Assembly (NCBI GenBank): GCA_025210965.1
Contig: JAOAQY010000192.1
Span: 1 to 53,317 of the forward strand
Source of the DNA: Tissierellales bacterium
Lineage (GTDB): Bacteria > Bacillota > Clostridia > Tissierellales > JAOAQY01
DNA: 53,317 nucleotides
Reading direction: 5' to 3'
Position numbers and translations under genes: made by a program. The first letter of the stretch is position 1. Each line of letters begins with the position of its first letter. This document shows positions 549 through 19,124 of this stretch, piece by piece. A model generated the notes under the pieces. That model was not told the origin of the DNA and did not search any database. It worked only from the letters and a program-made list of their open reading frames with translations.

Positions 549-2681
549 CTAAAGACCTAATCTCAATCTTTCTTCTCTAATTAAATTTTGCTCAATATCT
601 TTTGACAAACTTGCTTTCCCTGAATAAGATTTATCCGCAAAACTATCAAATATTTTTTGCTTCCCTTTCAATAAATGCATGATTCTCTCATCAACACTAT
701 TTTCCATAAGCAATCTATGAACTGTCACATTTCTAGTTTGCCCCATTCGGTAAACACGCGAAATTGCTTGATTTTCAATGGATGGCTTTATTTGTGGTTC
801 ACAAAATACAACAACATTTGCACTTTGGATATTTAAACCGATTCCCCCCGCTGTTACTTGACTTACTAAAACCGTTCCCGAAGGTGCATGAGTAAATTCA
901 TCAATTATTTCTTGCCTTCTTTGTGAGGAAACACTACCTGTGATTGGCTCAAGTGTCCTTTCATTTAGTAAATTATTAACCTTTTGAATTACATCTCTAA
1001 AATATGAAAATACAATAATCTTCTGATTGCTAATCTTTGCCTCTTCACAAATTTCTATTAATCGTTTTGCTTTGCTTGAATTGCTTATACTACTTGTATT
1101 CCATGATACTTGGCGCATAGACATAAAATTTCCCGACATCACGGAGTTTCGATAAGCTTCGATTTCATGTGGTGTAAACACACTCCACTCCTCTTTTTCT
1201 TGTAAATCAGGGAGTTCTGTAAGCACATCTTCACGAACTCTTCTTAGATAAACTGGAGCGACTTTTTGTCTAAATTGTGGTGCATTTGAAATATGCCTCA
1301 TAGACTGAATTTTTTTTGCTACATTAGGTTGTAAACATTTTACTAGATTGCACATTTCATCAATATTATTCTCAATTGGCGTACCTGTCATAAATAATTT
1401 CATACTTGATATCTGAGATAACTTCATTACAGCTTTTGAACGGATTGCATTAGGATTTTTTACATAATGTGCTTCATCAACTACTAGCATGTCTATTTTA
1501 TGGCTAGATGGTATATTAATACGGCTTATAGTTTCATAAGTACTGACTGCTACACCGCCATGTTTTAACCATTCTCTTAACGAATTATCTCTATCTTTCC
1601 CATATATACTAATAGCTTTTAATTCGCTATGATTTTCAACTTCACGACTCCAATTGATTAGTACACTTGCAGGGCAAACAACAAAAAAATACTTTTTCCC
1701 TTTAAGCTTTAATTCACCCATTGCAGCAATAGATTGAATCGTCTTACCAAGACCCATTTCATCCCCTAAAAGCGAATTTCTCTGATGTAGAATATATTTC
1801 GTACCAAACATTTGATAACTTCTCAGCGTAGACTTCATCAAACTTAAGTTTAGTGGGTATCGTTCAATGGAACTTATAAAATCATTGGACAAGCCACCTG
1901 TTGTCTTTTCTTTATCTAACTTTGTCCCTACAACTGATTCTAATAAGGCATAATAACGTGGTGCATTTGATTGAAAATCGTTCCAACAATAACGTCCTTT
2001 TTCAGAATTGATTTTTTTCATTTCTGCTGAAACTTGTTCAAAATCATCCTTATAGCCTGAATCTAAAATTGATTCAAGTTTTCTTAAACTTTGAAGCGCA
2101 TTCTCTTTCTTTTGCCTTGATGAGAAAAACCATTTAAACTTGCTAATAGCTCTCTGACTTTCTTTAGCATTTCTAAAAATAGCCTCATGCTCTCGCTGGT
2201 AAATCTGCTTGCATAACTCTATTATTTCCTTGCTATTTTCAACCAAATACAGTTCTTCCAATAATTTATTAGTACAATACGATTTATTCTCTGGATCAAT
2301 CTTTACTTTCACACTTTTCACAATACTATTATAAATTCTACCCACTGCAACATTTATCTTATAAGCTGATTGCTCCCCAATGTTCCTAATATTTATAAGT
2401 CGATCCCACGACATAGCATGTAATTGCTCAATATTATAGATCCCTGCATTTTTAAGAGCTGAAACTCTAATACCTAATTTATCCTTATTGATTTGCTCAA
2501 CGTCAATGCCTCTAAGAATTGAATTAATCATTTCTTTTTTCAAGTTCTCATATGCTTTTCTTATATTGCTACTGAAGTTTTTTTCCACTTCTAAAATGTT
2601 TTTTAATCGTTTATCAATAGATTCTATTTCATTTACTATTTTCTTAGCGTGTTCAAAATCATGTTTTTTAGATTTAAACAT
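549..2681 (-). CDS. SNF2-family helicase with N-terminal HhH region
   Basis: A 710-residue superfamily 2 DNA translocase. All SNF2 motifs are present: motif I GDEMGLGKT (306-314), motif II DEAH (402-405), motif III MTGTP (431-435), motif V around TAGGIGLN (610-617) and motif VI QAISRVYRMGQ (638-648). Residues 1-60 and 145-230 are charged and probably helical or coiled. Residues 72-110 (KNAGIYNIEQL...IRNIGEQSAYKI) look like tandem helix-hairpin-helix DNA-binding motifs. The protein is expected to translocate on or remodel duplex DNA using ATP. The ATG at 2681 follows a GGGGGA ribosome binding site. It is the last gene of the minus-strand locus that begins with the GHKL ATPase, separated from the preceding gene by a hairpin terminator at 2740-2769. 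SNF2 proteins recur in defence systems (DISARM DrmD, Zorya ZorD), but the order here matches neither. Confidence 0.9.
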   Translation of the reverse strand: MFKSKKHDFEHAKKIVNEIESIDKRLKNILEVEKNFSSNIRKAYENLKKEMINSILRGIDVEQINKDKLGIRVSALKNAGIYNIEQLHAMSWDRLINIRNIGEQSAYKINVAVGRIYNSIVKSVKVKIDPENKSYCTNKLLEELYLVENSKEIIELCKQIYQREHEAIFRNAKESQRAISKFKWFFSSRQKKENALQSLRKLESILDSGYKDDFEQVSAEMKKINSEKGRYCWNDFQSNAPRYYALLESVVGTKLDKEKTTGGLSNDFISSIERYPLNLSLMKSTLRSYQMFGTKYILHQRNSLLGDEMGLGKTIQSIAAMGELKLKGKKYFFVVCPASVLINWSREVENHSELKAISIYGKDRDNSLREWLKHGGVAVSTYETISRINIPSSHKIDMLVVDEAHYVKNPNAIRSKAVMKLSQISSMKLFMTGTPIENNIDEMCNLVKCLQPNVAKKIQSMRHISNAPQFRQKVAPVYLRRVREDVLTELPDLQEKEEWSVFTPHEIEAYRNSVMSGNFMSMRQVSWNTSSISNSSKAKRLIEICEEAKISNQKIIVFSYFRDVIQKVNNLLNERTLEPITGSVSSQRRQEIIDEFTHAPSGTVLVSQVTAGGIGLNIQSANVVVFCEPQIKPSIENQAISRVYRMGQTRNVTVHRLLMENSVDERIMHLLKGKQKIFDSFADKSYSGKASLSKDIEQNLIREERLRLGL

Positions 2682-2736
2682 ATGTCCCCCTATCCGCCTT
2701 TGTAAAAGATAAATCTTGTATAGTACTTCTTAGAAA

Positions 2737-2769
2737 AATAGCCGAAGTCGATTGCTCGATGCTTCGGCT
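2737..2769 (-). terminator. Hairpin terminator between the 193-aa gene and the SNF2 gene
   Basis: AGCCGAAG (2740-2747) pairs perfectly with CTTCGGCT (2762-2769). An inner TCGA/TCGA pairing extends the stem. On the minus strand the stem is followed by ATTTTTCTA, so it faces transcription coming from the upstream genes. It probably limits read-through into the SNF2 gene, setting a lower dose of helicase than of the other proteins. Confidence 0.65.
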
Positions 2770-2813
2770 TTGGTTTTACAACTTAATTACAGTATATTTC
2801 TAGAAAGTTTTCA

Positions 2814-3395
2814 TCATAAACAATTTAATTCATACCCCTTGTTTTCCATATAATGTCCTTTAATAATTGCGACCTTCAAAAGTTCTTCACAAAATTGTTT
2901 CGCAGTTGTATCAATAAATTGATTCTTATTTGTATCATATTTTCCAAAATATACTTTATTATTCTCCGAAAATCTAATTCCTTCCCTACTAATATCCATA
3001 GCCATCATATCTCGTTTAGATTTTCGTTCTTCCTTATCCATGTGCCTAGATGACAATTTAAGTGAAATTTCAAAATTTATCATACCACTTGAATACCCTT
3101 TACTCAAATTAACAGACGTCAACATTCCCTTGTTATTATAAACAAAAATTCTATAATAATTTGAAATATTTTCATAAAGTTGAATGCAAATCGGAATTTT
3201 TAAATCATCTCCAATTATTTGCAATTCTAGATCCTTGCCCAAAAAATTTTTTTCAGCTAAATCTCCATTTTGATTATTAATTGTATTCTCTATACCTTTT
3301 TTAACCACAAACTCACAGTTATTAACTGTAACCTCTCTCAATTTAGTTTTACGTAAACAATTCGAAAGATTTTCTATAGTTGAAATATTAAACAT
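2814..3395 (-). CDS. Unrecognised 193-aa protein of the GHKL/SNF2 locus
   Basis: I do not recognise a family. The protein is soluble, without signal peptide or membrane segment. Alternating hydrophobic patterns (for example LELQIIGDDLKIPICIQLYENI, about residues 55-76, and YYRIFVYNNKG after it) suggest a beta-rich N-terminal half. A lysine/arginine-rich linker (MDKEERKSKRDMMAMDISR) leads into a second strand-rich segment and a helical tail. It has an excellent ribosome binding site (AGGAGG) before ATG 3395. It follows the 186-aa gene by about 40 bases on the same strand, so co-transcription is likely, and a terminator follows it. Possible roles are a DNA- or partner-binding subunit; that is guesswork from position. 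Confidence 0.7.
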   Translation of the reverse strand: MFNISTIENLSNCLRKTKLREVTVNNCEFVVKKGIENTINNQNGDLAEKNFLGKDLELQIIGDDLKIPICIQLYENISNYYRIFVYNNKGMLTSVNLSKGYSSGMINFEISLKLSSRHMDKEERKSKRDMMAMDISREGIRFSENNKVYFGKYDTNKNQFIDTTAKQFCEELLKVAIIKGHYMENKGYELNCL

Positions 3396-3434
3396 AATAT
3401 TATCCTCCTGCAGCTAAGCTATTAACTGTACCCA

Positions 3435-3986
3435 TTAATTTTTAGTTTCTATTTTTTCGTTCTGCTCTATTCCAAAAATCTCATCAATATTTTTAATACG
3501 TACTTGAAATGTATTGTCTTTGCCACCTAGCTTATCTGCCCTTGCTGTACCATAAACATCAAAACTCCAATGACCTTTAACTAATCTAATTTTAGCACTT
3601 TGGTTCTTATATTTATCTAACCTATTTAAATCAATACATTGGAATATTTTCTCCTTAGGAACAACCGCAACCTTGCTTTTATTTAAAGATAATTTTCCGC
3701 ATACAAATACGAAGTAAAATTGCTTATCTTCTGAATCTATAGTTTTAATTTCATCAATTTGGCTTTCTGTAAATGGAAAATTCCATATACTACTGCTTTT
3801 CGCTTTATTTTCACTTGAAGGTTTTTCAGAATATTTAACATATACTCTAAAGTCACCTTTATTGGTCGTAAAATCATATATTTTTCTATTAACTTCAACT
3901 CGTTCTTCAAAAAGAGCAGGAACAATTCCATTATTCAATAAAAATGATAGAAAAGCACCACAATAAAAATCTTCTTTCTTTATCAT
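3435..3986 (-). CDS. Small protein, possible PD-(D/E)xK nuclease fold
   Basis: A 183-residue protein. I take the ATG at 3986 because AAGGGA lies 8-9 bases upstream, while the ATG at 3995 sits inside that ribosome binding site. The N-terminal half (helix, then IYDFTTNKGDFRVYVKYSEK around residues 36-55) has the outline of a restriction-endonuclease core: Glu27/28 in the first helix, Asp38 at the end of a strand and Lys51 in the x-x-K position. The usual Glu/Asp two residues before the lysine is Tyr49. The strand QFYFVFVCG and the later VAVVPKEKI pattern also resemble small REase-like proteins. The fold is therefore possible, and catalysis is doubtful. It lies upstream of the 193-aa gene and 240 bases downstream of the 243-aa gene. 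Confidence 0.6.
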   Translation of the reverse strand: MIKKEDFYCGAFLSFLLNNGIVPALFEERVEVNRKIYDFTTNKGDFRVYVKYSEKPSSENKAKSSSIWNFPFTESQIDEIKTIDSEDKQFYFVFVCGKLSLNKSKVAVVPKEKIFQCIDLNRLDKYKNQSAKIRLVKGHWSFDVYGTARADKLGGKDNTFQVRIKNIDEIFGIEQNEKIETKN

Positions 3987-4044
3987 CACTATCATCCCTT
4001 ACTTAATCATTATTAAGGCTTGAGTAATCAGCTCTATAATGTAT

Positions 4045-4155
4045 CTAAAATTCACTTATTTTAAAATCATAATTATTCAATAATTTAATAATCAAATTAC
4101 AAATAGCATTACCACTCCTAAGCAAAATTCGATAACTATTAAAATTTTACTGCCA
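4045..4155 (-). pseudogene. Possible frameshifted small ORF between two locus genes
   Basis: The gap from 3987 to 4233 holds no intact ORF, but the minus strand contains two protein-like frames that would join into one if a base were removed at the T run (plus-strand 4141-4144). One reads MAVKF from ATG 4155, then stops. The other continues NSYRILLRSGNAICNLII and so on to ISEF with a stop at 4045-4047. The amino-acid pattern looks coding, with no ribosome binding site visible before ATG 4155. It may be a decayed gene, a frameshift error or chance. I see no convincing promoter for the 186-aa gene in this gap. Confidence 0.25.
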
Positions 4156-4233
4156 TATATCGTTTTTGTGGTCTTTTTAATATGAAATCAGATTAATACT
4201 ATAGAGTTCAATTGGAATGCGGCACGAGCTTTT

Positions 4234-4965
4234 TTAATCCCAATAATAATCTAAGTACTTAAAAAACAATTCCTCCAATTCCATCTTTTCTAGCATAGGA
4301 GACATTTCTATCGGATAGTTTTTATTAAACTCAAGGAGTATTCGTCTTCCAACCCTCTCATCTTTTCCTAAATCGTCTCTGCCTTTTACTTTTGACTTCA
4401 ATATCTTTGTAAGATTAAACTCATCTATTATATCTAGAACATTAATTAAAAATTTATCATTTCTAAAAATTTCATACTTTATAATATAATTATATAAATC
4501 AAGATTATCAACAATAAGATCATAATATTTTTCTTTTTCATTTTCTATATTATCATATACATATTGAGCACCTAAAATACATTTATATATATAATTTTCC
4601 CAATCAAATTTCTTTGTCACTATATTTTTAAAATATTTTATCCCATCTACTAATTGAGGATACTCTTTAAGCAAATAATCCCTCTTATAAATACAGAGCA
4701 ATGAGTGCCAAAACAATTCATTAAAGTGAATATCTCTATCTGTATTCAAATAATACTTATCAATTACATTAAAAGCTTGTCGAAAAAGTATTTTCTTTTC
4801 ACTCGCATCTCCTTTTGCAATGTATACCGGAAAATCTGGTGCTTCATCAATATTTACTACTTCTCCCGAAAAATACTCATCATTATTTTTAATCCTATCA
4901 TTTAAAAAATCTTCATAAAATTTCTCATTATCCTTATAACCAGCCTTCAATAACTTAATTTCCAT
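4234..4965 (-). CDS. Unrecognised 243-aa helical protein of the GHKL/SNF2 locus
   Basis: I do not recognise the family. The protein is soluble, very rich in Lys, Asp, Glu and aromatic residues, and apparently all-helical from residue 60 on (for example FHEL-like HFNELFWHSLLCIYKRDYLL and YLDYYWD at the C-terminus). A short strand-rich segment ending PVYIAKGDASEKK occupies residues 35-58. Its start overlaps the end of the 283-aa gene by 11 bases, so the two are translationally coupled and probably made in fixed proportion. It is the third gene of the transcript that begins at 7834-7862. A structural or adaptor role with the GHKL ATPase is possible, but the sequence alone does not show it. Confidence 0.75.
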   Translation of the reverse strand: MEIKLLKAGYKDNEKFYEDFLNDRIKNNDEYFSGEVVNIDEAPDFPVYIAKGDASEKKILFRQAFNVIDKYYLNTDRDIHFNELFWHSLLCIYKRDYLLKEYPQLVDGIKYFKNIVTKKFDWENYIYKCILGAQYVYDNIENEKEKYYDLIVDNLDLYNYIIKYEIFRNDKFLINVLDIIDEFNLTKILKSKVKGRDDLGKDERVGRRILLEFNKNYPIEMSPMLEKMELEELFFKYLDYYWD

Positions 4966-5806
4966 TTGTATTCAATCTCCTTACTGCCGCCGTATATTTT
5001 TCTAATATTCTATCTGAAATTGAATAAATAACCTCGTCTATATTATCTACATTTAATTTATCAATCATTTTCATCTTCATAAGATTGTATAGCTTGGAAT
5101 CAATTCCTTCTAACTGATCTCCTACTTCATCAAGAAACACAATTTCGTCTTCCCCCCCATGAAGCACTATAAATCTGTACAGTGCTTTTTGAAGACCCAT
5201 GTATATATACGGACTATTTAAAATTGAACTCGATGCAAAGTCATTAAATTGTAAATTCTCTTTTTTATAATTAATAATAATTGTTTCATTTCCAAGCTCA
5301 ATTTTTACATCAGATTTAAGATTCGGATCAATTTTTTTCTCAAACAAATCCAAAGGCTTCTCATTACTTCCATCAAATACTACATTATTTGAGAACCCTA
5401 AAATTGAATTTTTAGGTACTATTATATCCCCTTTAAACTCTTCATAAAAAGAACTTAAATCACAATTATTCTCAAATGTTATTTCTCCTTTAGATTGTAT
5501 CAATAATTGGATTAATGTCTTTTTACTTAAAGACATTCTGCTTTTAGAAATTTTTATACTATTTTTATTTTTTTCTACTTCAAAAAACTTATTATCTTTT
5601 GACTGAATTACTAAAATCAATTTAGCTCTTTTTTCTTGTAACAAATTACGGATAAATTCCGACTCAATATCATAGCTTAAATCAAAAATATAATCATTTG
5701 TGTTTTCACTTAAATTTATATCTAGTATGAATCCGCAATTCATATAGCTACTCGACGTATTAGTTAACAATGGATATGGAAAATTTGCTTCCTTTTTATA
5801 AATCAT
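4955..5806 (-). CDS. Unrecognised 283-aa protein coupled to the GHKL ATPase
   Basis: I do not recognise the family. The first 190 residues alternate short strands with charged loops. The middle part, around residues 165-190 (DVKIELGNETIIINYKKENL), is clearly beta. The last 90 residues are helical: a hydrophobic helix with LQKALYRFIVLHGG, an acidic segment EDEIVFLDEVGDQLEG (219-234) and two further helices. There is no signal peptide or membrane segment. The ATG at 5806 starts one base after the stop of the GHKL gene and the gene overlaps the next ORF by 11 bases, so the three genes form a tight translational unit. This strongly suggests that its product works with the GHKL ATPase, perhaps as a clamp partner or specificity subunit. 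Confidence 0.75.
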   Translation of the reverse strand: MIYKKEANFPYPLLTNTSSSYMNCGFILDINLSENTNDYIFDLSYDIESEFIRNLLQEKRAKLILVIQSKDNKFFEVEKNKNSIKISKSRMSLSKKTLIQLLIQSKGEITFENNCDLSSFYEEFKGDIIVPKNSILGFSNNVVFDGSNEKPLDLFEKKIDPNLKSDVKIELGNETIIINYKKENLQFNDFASSSILNSPYIYMGLQKALYRFIVLHGGEDEIVFLDEVGDQLEGIDSKLYNLMKMKMIDKLNVDNIDEVIYSISDRILEKYTAAVRRLNTNGN

Positions 5807-5807
5807 T

Positions 5808-7706
5808 TTACACCTCTATGCCGTACACAAATTTTAGAGCCTTATTGAAACTTTTATTCAACTTAAGCTCAATTTGTGCAGTTCCATCTTTTATTTTTAC
5901 ATCTTTTATTAAATTTTTTTGTGTTTCGCAATGTCTTCCAGTTGACTTATCTAGAACCTCTTTATAATTATCATCTATATTAAATTGGTTAGTATACTCC
6001 ATACCCATACCATCAACAAAAGATAATGAAATATCACATATTTTCAAATTTTTAACTTCTTTACTCTCTGAAAAATTGAACCTTAAAATTTCTTTTTCAC
6101 CTAAAACTATTCTTTCTACGATATCCGGATGTATATTATACATTATTTTATCTTTTTCGCCCACTTCGCCATTTTGATCTTTTACTTTTTTTACAATTTT
6201 TTTCACATTACGCTTTGTTCCTGGTTTATCTTTGGTTGAAATATCAGATCTGGTTTTAGTCAAAATTTTCTTTTTTTTGCCTTTATTTATTTTGACTGTA
6301 CTAATAGCCTTTGAAAGATCTTTTTTAAATCGGTGTTCCACAGTATATAATAAATCCTTTGTATTTATAAATCCTTCTGTAGGATTCCTTTTCTTTATCT
6401 CTTCATCAATAATCTTTGCTATTTCTCTTGAAATATTATTAATAAACCGCTTTGCATTTTTTTGCAACTTCTGATTTTTTATATGCTCATATGAAATTTC
6501 CGTATGAGACTCATTTTCGAGCGACTTCAAAAATGCATCTTCCAAACTTGATTGTGGTATCAAAATAGCACTAAATGGTTTAGTTGCATAATTCTGAACT
6601 TTTCTATCTTCTATTTTCATACCGATAGTTCGTATAATAGCAACTCGCCCTTTAGAAATTTCCTCATCATATTTAAAATATAGTTGAAACTTATACTCTT
6701 CATTAATATCTTTTATACTTATTTCAATGGGCTCTATACTTAAATACGTGTTGAAATATAATGGCGTAAATTCCTGTTTCATTTCCATAATTTTTTGAAC
6801 ATAATATTTTTCATTCAATATATATTCTTTAATCGTATTACTAGTAATAGCATTATTGTTAACAATTACTTCTAATTTTTTTTCAATTATTGCAATAAAA
6901 AAGTTATCACAAACACTTTTTATTATTTTGTCTTCACTATTAAACTGTTCCCTCAAAAAAGGAATTATAATTTTCAATCCTCTAGTGTCTTTTGAAAACA
7001 CTTCATCAAAATTATTTTCAAATGGAAGGAACTTTGTCTCACCTACACCTATGTTTTCTAAATCTGCAAAATACCCAGTCGATCTATAACATTTTTCCTT
7101 GTATCTATGTTCTATAAGCTGTACTGTTCCACCAAGATGTTTATTTCCTAGTTCATCACAATTTGCGAAATACATAATATTTAATTCTGATGCTGCATTT
7201 GATGCTATTTTTCCTATACCATGTGAACCCCCTCGAATACTCTCTAAATCAACATCCTTATCTTCTGAATGCACTCCCTTATTATATGCATACATCCCCC
7301 ATGTATCTTCTTTCGAATTACTTTGTCCATTCCTAGCTCCAGCCAACCCTTTTGTATTAGAATCCTCAAAAGAAATATAATTCACTTCGTTTTCTTCCAT
7401 TTTATCCTTCATATGCTCTATAGTTTCTTTAGTATAAGTAGTTTTACCTTCAAGGCACAAAATTCTTTCTTTTATTTCATCAAATCCTGGTATCCGTTCT
7501 TTGCTTATTCGTCCAGTTTCTATTCTAACTACAACTGGCTTATTTTTATCCGCTAGTCTAGCATCTAACGAGTTCTGAATATTTTCTTTAACAAGTCCTA
7601 GTATTCCTAGATTATAAAACTGTTCTAGCATTTTATTAAACATTGATTCTTCTATTCCTGGAATACATGAAAATTTCCATAAACTTTTACAGTCTTCGCT
7701 ATTCAT
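5808..7706 (-). CDS. GHKL ATPase, MORC/MutL/Hsp90-like
   Basis: A 632-residue protein with a Bergerat-fold ATP site. The N box is LVKENIQNSLDA (38-49, with Glu41, Asn42/Asn45 and Asp48). The G1 box is FEDSNTKGL (113-121, with Asp115 and Gly120). The G2 lid is RGGSHGIGKIASNAA (158-172). A probable ribosomal-S5-like transducer domain follows at about 250-420, then a Lys-rich linker (about 480-525, KGKKKKILTK) and a beta-rich C-terminal domain (about 530-632). In this fold ATP drives N-terminal dimerisation into a clamp. MORC- and MutL-type versions are known in prokaryotic restriction-like systems together with helicases and nucleases. The ATG at 7706 follows GGGGAT. The gene is first in the transcript from the promoter at 7834-7862. 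I see no fused nuclease domain, so cleavage would have to come from a partner. Confidence 0.85.
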   Translation of the reverse strand: MNSEDCKSLWKFSCIPGIEESMFNKMLEQFYNLGILGLVKENIQNSLDARLADKNKPVVVRIETGRISKERIPGFDEIKERILCLEGKTTYTKETIEHMKDKMEENEVNYISFEDSNTKGLAGARNGQSNSKEDTWGMYAYNKGVHSEDKDVDLESIRGGSHGIGKIASNAASELNIMYFANCDELGNKHLGGTVQLIEHRYKEKCYRSTGYFADLENIGVGETKFLPFENNFDEVFSKDTRGLKIIIPFLREQFNSEDKIIKSVCDNFFIAIIEKKLEVIVNNNAITSNTIKEYILNEKYYVQKIMEMKQEFTPLYFNTYLSIEPIEISIKDINEEYKFQLYFKYDEEISKGRVAIIRTIGMKIEDRKVQNYATKPFSAILIPQSSLEDAFLKSLENESHTEISYEHIKNQKLQKNAKRFINNISREIAKIIDEEIKKRNPTEGFINTKDLLYTVEHRFKKDLSKAISTVKINKGKKKKILTKTRSDISTKDKPGTKRNVKKIVKKVKDQNGEVGEKDKIMYNIHPDIVERIVLGEKEILRFNFSESKEVKNLKICDISLSFVDGMGMEYTNQFNIDDNYKEVLDKSTGRHCETQKNLIKDVKIKDGTAQIELKLNKSFNKALKFVYGIEV

Positions 7707-7833
7707 AAATATCCCCTTTCTATTTTAATAATTTAACTCTCCTTTTTAATTATCAAAGCTTTATACATCTCTCTTTTGAAATTTAGTCATTATATTCTTT
7801 AGCTACTTTGTATTAAATTAAACACTCTTAATA

Positions 7834-7862
7834 ATTGTACCCTCTCTATTTTCATATGTCAA
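7834..7862 (-). promoter_or_regulatory. Strong sigma-A-type promoter of the GHKL/SNF2 locus
   Basis: Read on the minus strand, a perfect -35 TTGACA (7857-7862) is followed after exactly 17 bases by -10 TACAAT (7834-7839). Transcription would start near 7827, leaving a leader of about 120 bases before the GHKL start codon. The quality of this promoter suggests the locus is expressed constitutively or is controlled by a factor that is not obvious here. Confidence 0.75.
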
Positions 7863-17034: not shown

Positions 17035-17958
17035 TTAATGTGCAACACTGAAATTAGATTCTGTAATAATTCTATTCAATAATTCTTCTTTTGTATATAA
17101 TTTCCTAACAAGCTGAATATCCTCTTCACCCATACAATATACCTTTATATTGCCATGAGATGATGCATCTAAAATTTCCATCATCTCATTTGTACTTGTT
17201 AAAATTTGTTTTCTATGCATCTCATAAACTAATCTTGATGTAGTAAGTTGCATCGGTGCTCTTACACTATGCTGCTTTTCAATATATTGCCTAATTGAGA
17301 TTACATGGTTCCTTATTTTCAAGTCATCACTTAAAATAATGTATTTTCCAATTGGTATTTTTGTTAATATCACAATTAATATGAGTATTAATTCTTCAGC
17401 TAAGCTATCACCTTCACATTTTTGTTCCCTCGAAAACTTAAAGAATCTCTCATAATTATCCTCACTTCCAGGTGAAGAACTCAATATCTTCGATTTCAAA
17501 ATTTCAGGCAATTCTTTTATCACATTATTTATAGCAGTTTTAGATTTACTAACTTCCTTAATAGCATATCCTAATAACTTGTTTGCATCCTCTGAATTAA
17601 TATTCAGTGCCTCTTTTATTATTCCAAGAGAATTTTCCTCGTCTAACAACAGTATTGAAATACCATTCTCGTTGATTTTTCTAAAGTAATCCACTTGAAC
17701 CTGATCAATGTCACCATTATTTGAAGACAGTTCCATCAAAACAGTTCTCGTAATAATTATATTCGCCCCATGAAGTTTAATAAACTCAATTATTGAGGAA
17801 TTTGATTTAGCATTAGAATGATGTATGAATGAACACGTATCATAAAAGTAGTGTTTTTCTGATGTATAAAATTGATCTCTAATCTGACTTGCCTCGATGA
17901 TTAAGAATTGTTCTATCTCACTAAAGTTATTGGGAACTTTCTTATATACTTTACTCAT
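17035..17958 (-). CDS. PIN-like nuclease, third gene of the XRE-ImmA-PIN triad
   Basis: A 307-residue protein with the acidic residues of a PIN ribonuclease or structure-specific nuclease: Asp40 in FYDTCSF at the end of the first strand, Glu76 in VLMELSS, Asp183 and Glu187 in EGDSLAEELI, and Asp210/Asp211 in IILSDD. It is about twice as long as a VapC toxin, with a roughly 90-residue helical insert between the second and third motifs and an extra C-terminal segment of about 85 residues. The start overlaps the ImmA/IrrE-type gene by 8 bases. PIN toxins cleave tRNA, rRNA or mRNA; the target here cannot be inferred. In this arrangement it is the probable effector held in check by the two upstream proteins. 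Confidence 0.8.
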   Translation of the reverse strand: MSKVYKKVPNNFSEIEQFLIIEASQIRDQFYTSEKHYFYDTCSFIHHSNAKSNSSIIEFIKLHGANIIITRTVLMELSSNNGDIDQVQVDYFRKINENGISILLLDEENSLGIIKEALNINSEDANKLLGYAIKEVSKSKTAINNVIKELPEILKSKILSSSPGSEDNYERFFKFSREQKCEGDSLAEELILILIVILTKIPIGKYIILSDDLKIRNHVISIRQYIEKQHSVRAPMQLTTSRLVYEMHRKQILTSTNEMMEILDASSHGNIKVYCMGEEDIQLVRKLYTKEELLNRIITESNFSVAH

Positions 17959-18751
17959 CTTTAGATACCCTTATAGATGCGTATAATGTTTCTATACTTT
18001 GTAAAATATTGTTCAAATTTACTTCAGACAATAAATCTTCATTAACTAGTCTTTGACCTTCTTTTTTTAATACTTCTACAAGATATCCCATTTCATCTTT
18101 AAGCGAAGGTTCTAATATTTCTTTATCCAACCAAAGTTCATCAAATAAAGCTTCAACTTTTTCTAAATCATAATCTAACAATTCCTTGACTATACTAGAA
18201 TCTTTTAAAATTTGAAGTTCAAATAACCTAATCAAAACAGCCATAAAGGGTGAATTAAAATAGTTCATTAATTTTACAATAACATATTCAATTTTTTCAA
18301 AATCTTCAATAAACAAATTAAACATTTTTTCAAATTCTACTTCAGGCATTAATAAATTAGCTGCAAATAGATTGGCTTTACTTTCATTTTCATTAGCGAA
18401 ATATTCTTGATTAAAGTGAACCTCACGCTTCTCATTAATATAGTCTGGCGTTCCATTCAGTATATGATATACATCATGACAGAATGAAAAGTACATTTTG
18501 CTTCTTGGTTGATTTGAATTCAGAAGCAAATATTTACTATAGCTAGTAGCTAGATAACAAGCCCCAAAATCGCTGTCTTTCATCGGAATTTCTACAATAA
18601 GAGTATCTAACCTTTTACCAATTTCTCTCATAACCTTTGGAATATCTCCATCTAGAAAAACTTTGGTATTAAAGTTTTGAATTGTTTTTTTAACACCTAA
18701 TTCATATTCTCGGTTTTTTATTATTATTTCCTTAAATCTACTAAAATTCAT
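17951..18751 (-). CDS. ImmA/IrrE-type metallopeptidase with HDxxH motif
   Basis: About 266 residues, starting at ATG 18751 (GAGG about ten bases upstream); the TTG six bases earlier is less likely. Residues 80-140 carry the family core: SFCHDVYHILNG (His92, Asp93, His96) and NESKANLFAANLLMP (Glu123 as third zinc ligand). The usual catalytic Glu of HExxH is Asp93. ImmA/IrrE peptidases typically cleave an HTH repressor on receiving a signal, which releases the controlled genes. Here the repressor gene lies immediately upstream (11-base overlap) and the PIN gene downstream (8-base overlap). The Glu-to-Asp change could slow or abolish cleavage, leaving a binding role; this is inference. Confidence 0.82.
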   Translation of the reverse strand: MNFSRFKEIIIKNREYELGVKKTIQNFNTKVFLDGDIPKVMREIGKRLDTLIVEIPMKDSDFGACYLATSYSKYLLLNSNQPRSKMYFSFCHDVYHILNGTPDYINEKREVHFNQEYFANENESKANLFAANLLMPEVEFEKMFNLFIEDFEKIEYVIVKLMNYFNSPFMAVLIRLFELQILKDSSIVKELLDYDLEKVEALFDELWLDKEILEPSLKDEMGYLVEVLKKEGQRLVNEDLLSEVNLNNILQSIETLYASIRVSKDE

Positions 18752-19124
18752 AATCAAAAACCTCTAATGAATCTCGATCAATTTTCTTTTGAATGCCTAA
18801 GATTGCATCAATATGCTCTAAAAAATCAAATATTTGATTAGCTAATTCTTGTTTTGATTCATCAACTGCTCCCATATAAAACGCTATTGAAGTAGATTCT
18901 TTATACTGAGATTGTGTCAACTCAAGATTGTCTTTCATAAAAAAACTCGCTTCTTTTCCTAAGCATTTTGAAATTTTTTCCATATCTTCATACTGAATAT
19001 CCTGTTTTCCATTAAGAAGTCGTGAAAATTTATTCTTTTCAATTCCTGTAAGTTTCACAATGAAACTATTCTTAATACCATAATGCTCAATATACTTAAT
19101 AAGGTTATGAATAAACTTTGACAT
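18741..19124 (-). CDS. XRE-family repressor of the ImmA-PIN operon
   Basis: A 127-residue protein with a lambda-repressor-like HTH at about 15-60 (NSFIVKLTGIEKNKFSRLLN then YEDMEKISKCLG) and a helical C-terminal half likely to mediate dimerisation. The ATG at 19124 follows GGAGG by seven bases. It is first in a three-gene, overlapping operon. Two copies of the palindrome GTATCA-N5-TGAT(AC) lie upstream, one over the -10 region, so autorepression is likely. This layout resembles ICEBs1 ImmR/ImmA and similar toxin-antitoxin circuits where the peptidase removes the repressor. Confidence 0.85.
   Translation of the reverse strand: MSKFIHNLIKYIEHYGIKNSFIVKLTGIEKNKFSRLLNGKQDIQYEDMEKISKCLGKEASFFMKDNLELTQSQYKESTSIAFYMGAVDESKQELANQIFDFLEHIDAILGIQKKIDRDSLEVFDYEF

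Follow-up and report, generated by a model that had tools for sequence, protein, structure and literature searches.

Six neighbouring genes, encoding a GHKL-type ATPase, proteins of 283, 243, 186 and 193 amino acids and a SNF2 protein, raise the question of whether they work together as one undescribed defence system, as a first-pass annotation had proposed, or whether a smaller unit lies among them. The window analysed is a stretch of 53,317 nucleotides from a Tissierellales bacterium (contig JAOAQY010000192.1). The six open reading frames are present in it as described, in this order and all on the minus strand: gene A, encoding the GHKL protein (632 aa, positions 5808-7706), gene B (283 aa, 4955-5806), gene C (243 aa, 4234-4965), the 186-aa gene (3435-3995), the 193-aa gene (2814-3395) and the SNF2 gene (710 aa, 549-2681). 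The first three genes do overlap or abut, with a spacing of 1 nt between A and B and an overlap of 11 nt between B and C. Further along, gaps of 238, 39 and 132 nt separate C from the 186-aa gene, the 186-aa from the 193-aa gene, and the 193-aa from the SNF2 gene, respectively.

The transcription signals set the upstream border of this group. A type I restriction operon adjoins gene A, as had been noted, and its HsdR, HsdS and HsdM proteins were identified. An intrinsic terminator on the minus strand at 7953-7916, consisting of a 10-bp stem and a run of seven T residues, has a folding energy of -14.6 kcal/mol (z -4.4, 0/200 shuffles). Since this hairpin with its T-run closes the upstream hsdMSR operon, A-B-C is most likely a transcription unit of its own that starts with the GHKL gene. 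The predicted consensus promoter, TTGACA-17-TACAAT, was located on the same strand at 7862-7834 and is the sole 11/12 match within 8.3 kb, a length for which about 0.75 such matches are expected after shuffling; within the 262-nt intergenic region upstream of A, however, a match by chance is unlikely, as only 2% of its shuffles contain an 11/12 match. Elsewhere in the window, the proposed XRE-ImmA-PIN module stands in part: XRE and ImmA (Peptidase_M78, 17951-18757) were confirmed, but the supposed PIN gene at 17035-17958 has no Pfam or PADLOC match. In addition, a 91-aa open reading frame at 15939-16214 matches residues 266-332 of the PADLOC candidate PDC-S18 (365 positions) with 55 bits and is possibly a fragment of another defence gene.

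Relatives of A were collected by scanning bacterial and archaeal genomes with an alignment as query, and the best 80 of 373 were kept; a single-protein scan of genome contigs gave no close relatives, which the alignment query did find. The first 21 of these 80 are 44-63% identical to A and come nearly all from Bacillota, and the remainder are 30% or less identical. In all 21 close relatives, A is followed by adjacent B and C genes. The 186-aa, 193-aa and SNF2 genes are present in none of the 21, within the DNA retrieved around A-B-C (in L029, the contig ends within C and leaves no DNA beyond, and in L026 only about 2 kb lies beyond C). When more distant loci from other genomes are counted too, B is found in 88 of 90 GHKL loci and C in 87, the exceptions being a remote GHKL protein (L020) and two incomplete or truncated loci (L045 and L075). 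On a mobilizable Enterococcus faecalis plasmid, A-B-C occurs by itself, with an AIPR gene before it and a recombinase after it.

Bases 4234-7706 very probably hold a three-gene operon that stands alone and forms a divergent sister branch of the PADLOC candidate PDC-M33, with a paraMORC2-type ATPase. The view of all six genes as one unit fails on the absence of the last three genes from the close relatives. It is very improbable that all six genes nevertheless function together as a single new system of this lineage, in which the SNF2, 193-aa and 186-aa genes would have joined the GHKL core and supply DNA translocation and targeting. Such a system could draw on the single strand, on the lack of a terminator between C and the 186-aa gene in a sequence scan, on the different SF2 helicases downstream of C in L025, L026, L027 and L030, and on the SF2 helicases that lie beside most MORC operons according to Iyer et al. 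(PMC2292703). However, besides the missing genes in the relatives, the 238-nt gap after C speaks against it, as do the 186-aa homologues that accompany unrelated restriction-modification (RM) systems. As a separate observation, seven viral contigs from IMG/VR (L144-L150) contain relatives of A, most followed by B- and C-sized genes, which indicates that phages or prophages carry the trio.

The three downstream genes each have their own relations. A homologue of the 186-aa protein with 71-72% identity lies next to an EcoRII restriction gene with its C5 methylase (L140:7415-7978), others precede HsdM-HsdS fusions (L141:7216-7731 and L142:7213-7713), and one is found near a NERD-UvrD helicase in L074, a canonical M33 locus. 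This family of small accessory proteins, as yet unnamed, recurs next to restriction systems of different kinds. The 193-aa protein was found in one of 398 genomes of the phylum, namely its own. It is 31% identical over 135 aa to residues 1-138 of a Hymenobacter HNH protein of 236 aa, and the gene ends at the point that corresponds to the start of the HNH part; no HNH remnant was seen in three frames between this gene and the SNF2 gene. By sequence, the protein is similar to an HNH endonuclease in its N-terminal domain, with the HNH part absent. For the SNF2 protein, the SNF2 domain (Pfam, 133.8 bits) and an N-terminal HhH-type (RNA_pol_A_CTD-like) motif were confirmed as annotated, and its best PADLOC scores are to the DrmD (467.7 bits) and DpdE (416.4 bits) models. 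Relatives of this protein occur on plasmids and in L046; they have a longer N-terminus and about 916-919 aa, and their neighbours include a GmrSD_C protein in Rhodococcus and a large restriction-type gene in Aerococcus. Single-protein scans of viral contigs gave no close relatives of the SNF2 or the 193-aa protein. The proposed role of the SNF2 protein as the helicase of a GHKL system does not agree with a separately distributed family that is missing beside the GHKL gene in 21/21 close relatives. The first-pass annotation had itself named separate occurrence of the two genes as counting against their unity, and across genomes they were found apart, both in defence-type surroundings. The simplest reading is that the 186-aa, 193-aa and SNF2 genes each reached this one island separately.

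Within the trio, gene A carries the intact ATP-binding motifs of a GHKL protein: an N-box (E41-x2-QNSLDA), a G1 motif (D115-SNTKG) and a G2 motif (GGSHGIGK, 159-166), followed by an ExxxH motif (E397-H401). Residues E41, N45, D48, D115, G120, G163 and G165 are invariant in 50 A relatives, and so are E397 and H401. The N-box is in register with a MutL profile and the G2 glycine loop with an HtpG profile, both at low overall probability. No model in Pfam, NCBIfam or PHROGs recognises A, and nothing meaningful came from PDB sequence profiles. The annotation of A as a GHKL ATPase is upheld at the motif level, since the assignment rests on motifs that are intact and invariant. In PADLOC, A matches PDC-M33A with 186 bits (E 2.6e-55). 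ExxxH, placed in the S5-fold domain behind the GHKL domain, is the signature assigned to paraMORC2, whose members occur in Gram-positives and cyanobacteria within restriction-type operons (Iyer, Abhiman and Aravind 2008, PMC2292703). The A locus combines the GHKL motifs, ExxxH and a restriction-type neighbourhood, and on its GHKL motifs and ExxxH sequence A fits a paraMORC2-like protein.

Gene B matches PDC-M33B in PADLOC with 49 bits (E 1.2e-13). Its predicted model (pLDDT 87) consists of an N-terminal beta-sandwich (about residues 11-148) and a helical C-terminal half, with an Ig/Fn3-like arrangement (Z up to 6.8, 3.2 A, 96 aligned). Foldseek pointed to cytokine-receptor Fn3 domains, at a TM under 0.3 of the query; this candidate was rejected, as the similarity reflects no more than a widespread beta-sandwich arrangement. 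A search of PDB sequence profiles with B likewise returned nothing meaningful.

Gene C is the third gene at the same position in all 22 loci of the window clade (defined below). In the canonical relatives, where PADLOC names A, B and C as PDC-M33, C is recognised as PDC-M33C and corresponds to Pfam DUF6339. The C protein of the window matches nothing in PADLOC, including its own M33C models, at E up to 1, and that of L022 has no match at E up to 0.1. Since the M33C models miss it, the trio is a divergent variant rather than a plain member of PDC-M33. A comparison with hhalign between a profile of the window-clade C proteins and a profile of 65 canonical C proteins, two sets without any common member, gave E 8.6e-7 and a probability of 91.5, which links the window C to PDC-M33C and DUF6339 as a divergent relative. 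The predicted model of C is mostly helical (pLDDT 95) and has no PDB structure match below E 0.5. PDB sequence profiles gave no meaningful match apart from a de novo helical repeat (E 0.0015), which was judged a helical-repeat coincidence.

Canonical C proteins have a conserved E-R-x-W...H pattern, of which R and H are absent in the window clade. An assignment of C as HEPN, considered for the R-x6-H of canonical members, was dropped as these residues are not retained in the window clade; the paper that connects HEPN with paraMORCs concerns a fusion, not gene C. The same pattern bears on an abortive-infection or toxin-type module, in which A would sense infection and release C (or B) as a toxic effector. 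A three-gene sensor/effector layout, a compact helical C that keeps E-R-x-W...H in canonical members, and AbiJ and AIPR genes beside some copies are in keeping with this alternative. However, it is doubtful, as the conserved R and H are lost in the window clade and no PDB fold match of C names a toxin.

The stand-alone trio can be placed more precisely with a maximum-likelihood tree of 87 A proteins, in which the window falls in a 22-member clade with 100/100 support. The stem of this clade is 2.8 changes per site in a tree that has long branches elsewhere too and whose rooting serves drawing only. PDC-M33 is a candidate of PADLOC-DB 2.0 that reportedly comes from the guilt-by-embedding preprint of Payne et al. 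(2024). No mention of PDC-M33 or DUF6339, and no demonstration of anti-phage activity of the module, was found in the literature searched. The trio is therefore already catalogued as a defence candidate and, as far as that literature shows, uncharacterised. The claim of an undescribed system does not hold for this core, which corresponds to PDC-M33 and has an ATPase that fits a family published in 2008. The claim of a probable defence module does, with a GHKL/MORC-like gene within a defence island.

A C5 cytosine methylase is present in 41 of 67 canonical M33 islands, in 33 of them within two genes and sometimes together with Vsr, and near none of the 22 window-clade A-B-C loci. The methylase label changes at least 11 times on the tree, indicating that the association comes and goes. 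Some methylases of canonical loci are found together with a nicking endonuclease or right next to MZA genes, and the C5 methylases may be part of nearby type II RM systems and not of M33. These data also bear on the alternative of A-B-C as the restriction part of a system with a C5 methylase; in the window clade, this methylase would have been lost, or the adjacent type I methylase would be used. The frequency and closeness of the methylase in canonical loci agree with it, and so does the position of the window A-B-C directly after hsdMSR. Against this, the methylase is missing throughout the window clade, most members of which are without type I RM adjacency, and the adjacent methylases, among them type II enzymes next to a nicking endonuclease, are possibly independent systems; this alternative is rather unlikely. 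In L046, L057, L074, L079, L081 and L097, C5 methylase genes flank A-B-C on both sides, followed in L046 by MzaB and MzaC.

The trio resides in restriction and defence islands. Neighbours in the window clade include type I RM, type IV HKD-helicase nucleases, GmrSD-type, McrB-like and AbiJ genes, and across A-B-C loci also type IV REase, Z1/MZA and AIPR. HKD/PLD-type SF2 helicase genes occur downstream of C at L026:3798-5765, L027:4908-7418, L025:9544-11787 and L030:13735-16977. Those of L026 and L027 directly adjoin C and are of the HKD-type mREase_IV, that of L025 is of the same type at 1 kb distance, and that of L030 is an HKD+SNF2 gene; these helicase families of the window clade differ from the SNF2 of the window. 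They offer hints of a recurrent helicase-nuclease partner for the window-clade trio. In 19 canonical M33 loci, and never in the window clade, a protein of 72-105 aa is encoded directly upstream of A (L045:9750-9968, L016:8242-8481, L018:9011-9241 and 16 other canonical loci). It has a conserved core, MSETKKERFKRIAGARTNKLL...LLGNCSNTGNYEYT, and no Pfam or PADLOC match, and could be a fourth subunit or a regulator.

For the function of A-B-C, an ATP-driven DNA-clamping restriction-type module is likely by analogy. An ATP-gated DNA clamp is favoured because of the DNA looping that Iyer et al. (PMC2292703) proposed for paraMORCs from the analogy with MutL, MORC and topoisomerase ATPases. Like other GHKL proteins, A would dimerise upon ATP binding and close as a clamp. 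B, with its beta-sandwich and helices, and the helical C would bind A and serve as substrate-recognition and coupling subunits. The complex may then trap or loop incoming phage DNA and either block it or pass it to a nuclease. In canonical relatives, the neighbouring C5 methylase may mark self DNA; as the window branch has no C5 methylase nearby, its discrimination between self and non-self would have to work in another way. No recognisable nuclease motif was found in A-B-C, and the models of B and C show no nuclease fold and point to no function; for lack of such a motif, the effector step is a guess. This clamp mechanism is tentative, at slightly below even confidence. A stricter version, in which a GHKL clamp and two non-catalytic partners stop phages through ATP-driven DNA trapping or compaction with neither nuclease nor methylase, seems unlikely; if true, it would be a bacterial counterpart of eukaryotic MORC silencing. 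The best overall explanation, a stand-alone PDC-M33-like trio whose paraMORC2-type ATPase acts as a DNA clamp, is held with modest confidence, somewhat above even.

With these results, a false six-gene system is replaced by a well-bounded, clonable three-gene one. The paraMORC2 ATPase family of 2008 is joined with PDC-M33 of PADLOC, a link not found in the literature searched, and a deep branch is marked whose C proteins escape the current PADLOC models and which is without the methylase association of its sister. Should such a MORC-like defence module without a nuclease prove active, it would bear directly on the silencing of foreign DNA by MORC ATPases.

Several known systems can be compared with the trio. 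The first-pass annotation had set the locus apart from DISARM, Zorya and MZA, and profile searches bear this out, as the defining partners of these systems are not matched among the six proteins. DrmA, DrmB and DrmC of DISARM are absent and only the SNF2 protein matches DISARM models; for Zorya, there is no ZorA/ZorB motor pair or ZorC match among the six. MZA occurs in similar islands, and a canonical M33 directly adjoins an MZA cluster in L046, but none of the six window proteins matches Mza (MzaB/MzaC) or Z1. WonAB (PMC12137116) was set aside as an unrelated OLD-ABC ATPase. The paraMORC3 Shedu protein VcSduA uses an N-terminal GHKL ATPase in phage defence (PMC12137116); unlike window A, in which no DUF4263 nuclease domain was detected with Pfam, it has this nuclease at the C-terminus of the same protein. 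Closer is paraMORC2, with common GHKL motifs, ExxxH, a Gram-positive and cyanobacterial distribution and a restriction context, although the partners B and C are not described in the available part of PMC2292703. As for PDC-M33, the window clade differs from it as a deep sister branch with a C protein missed by PADLOC and no C5 methylase in 22/22 loci, and shares with it the A-B-C order, homologous proteins and the defence-island setting.
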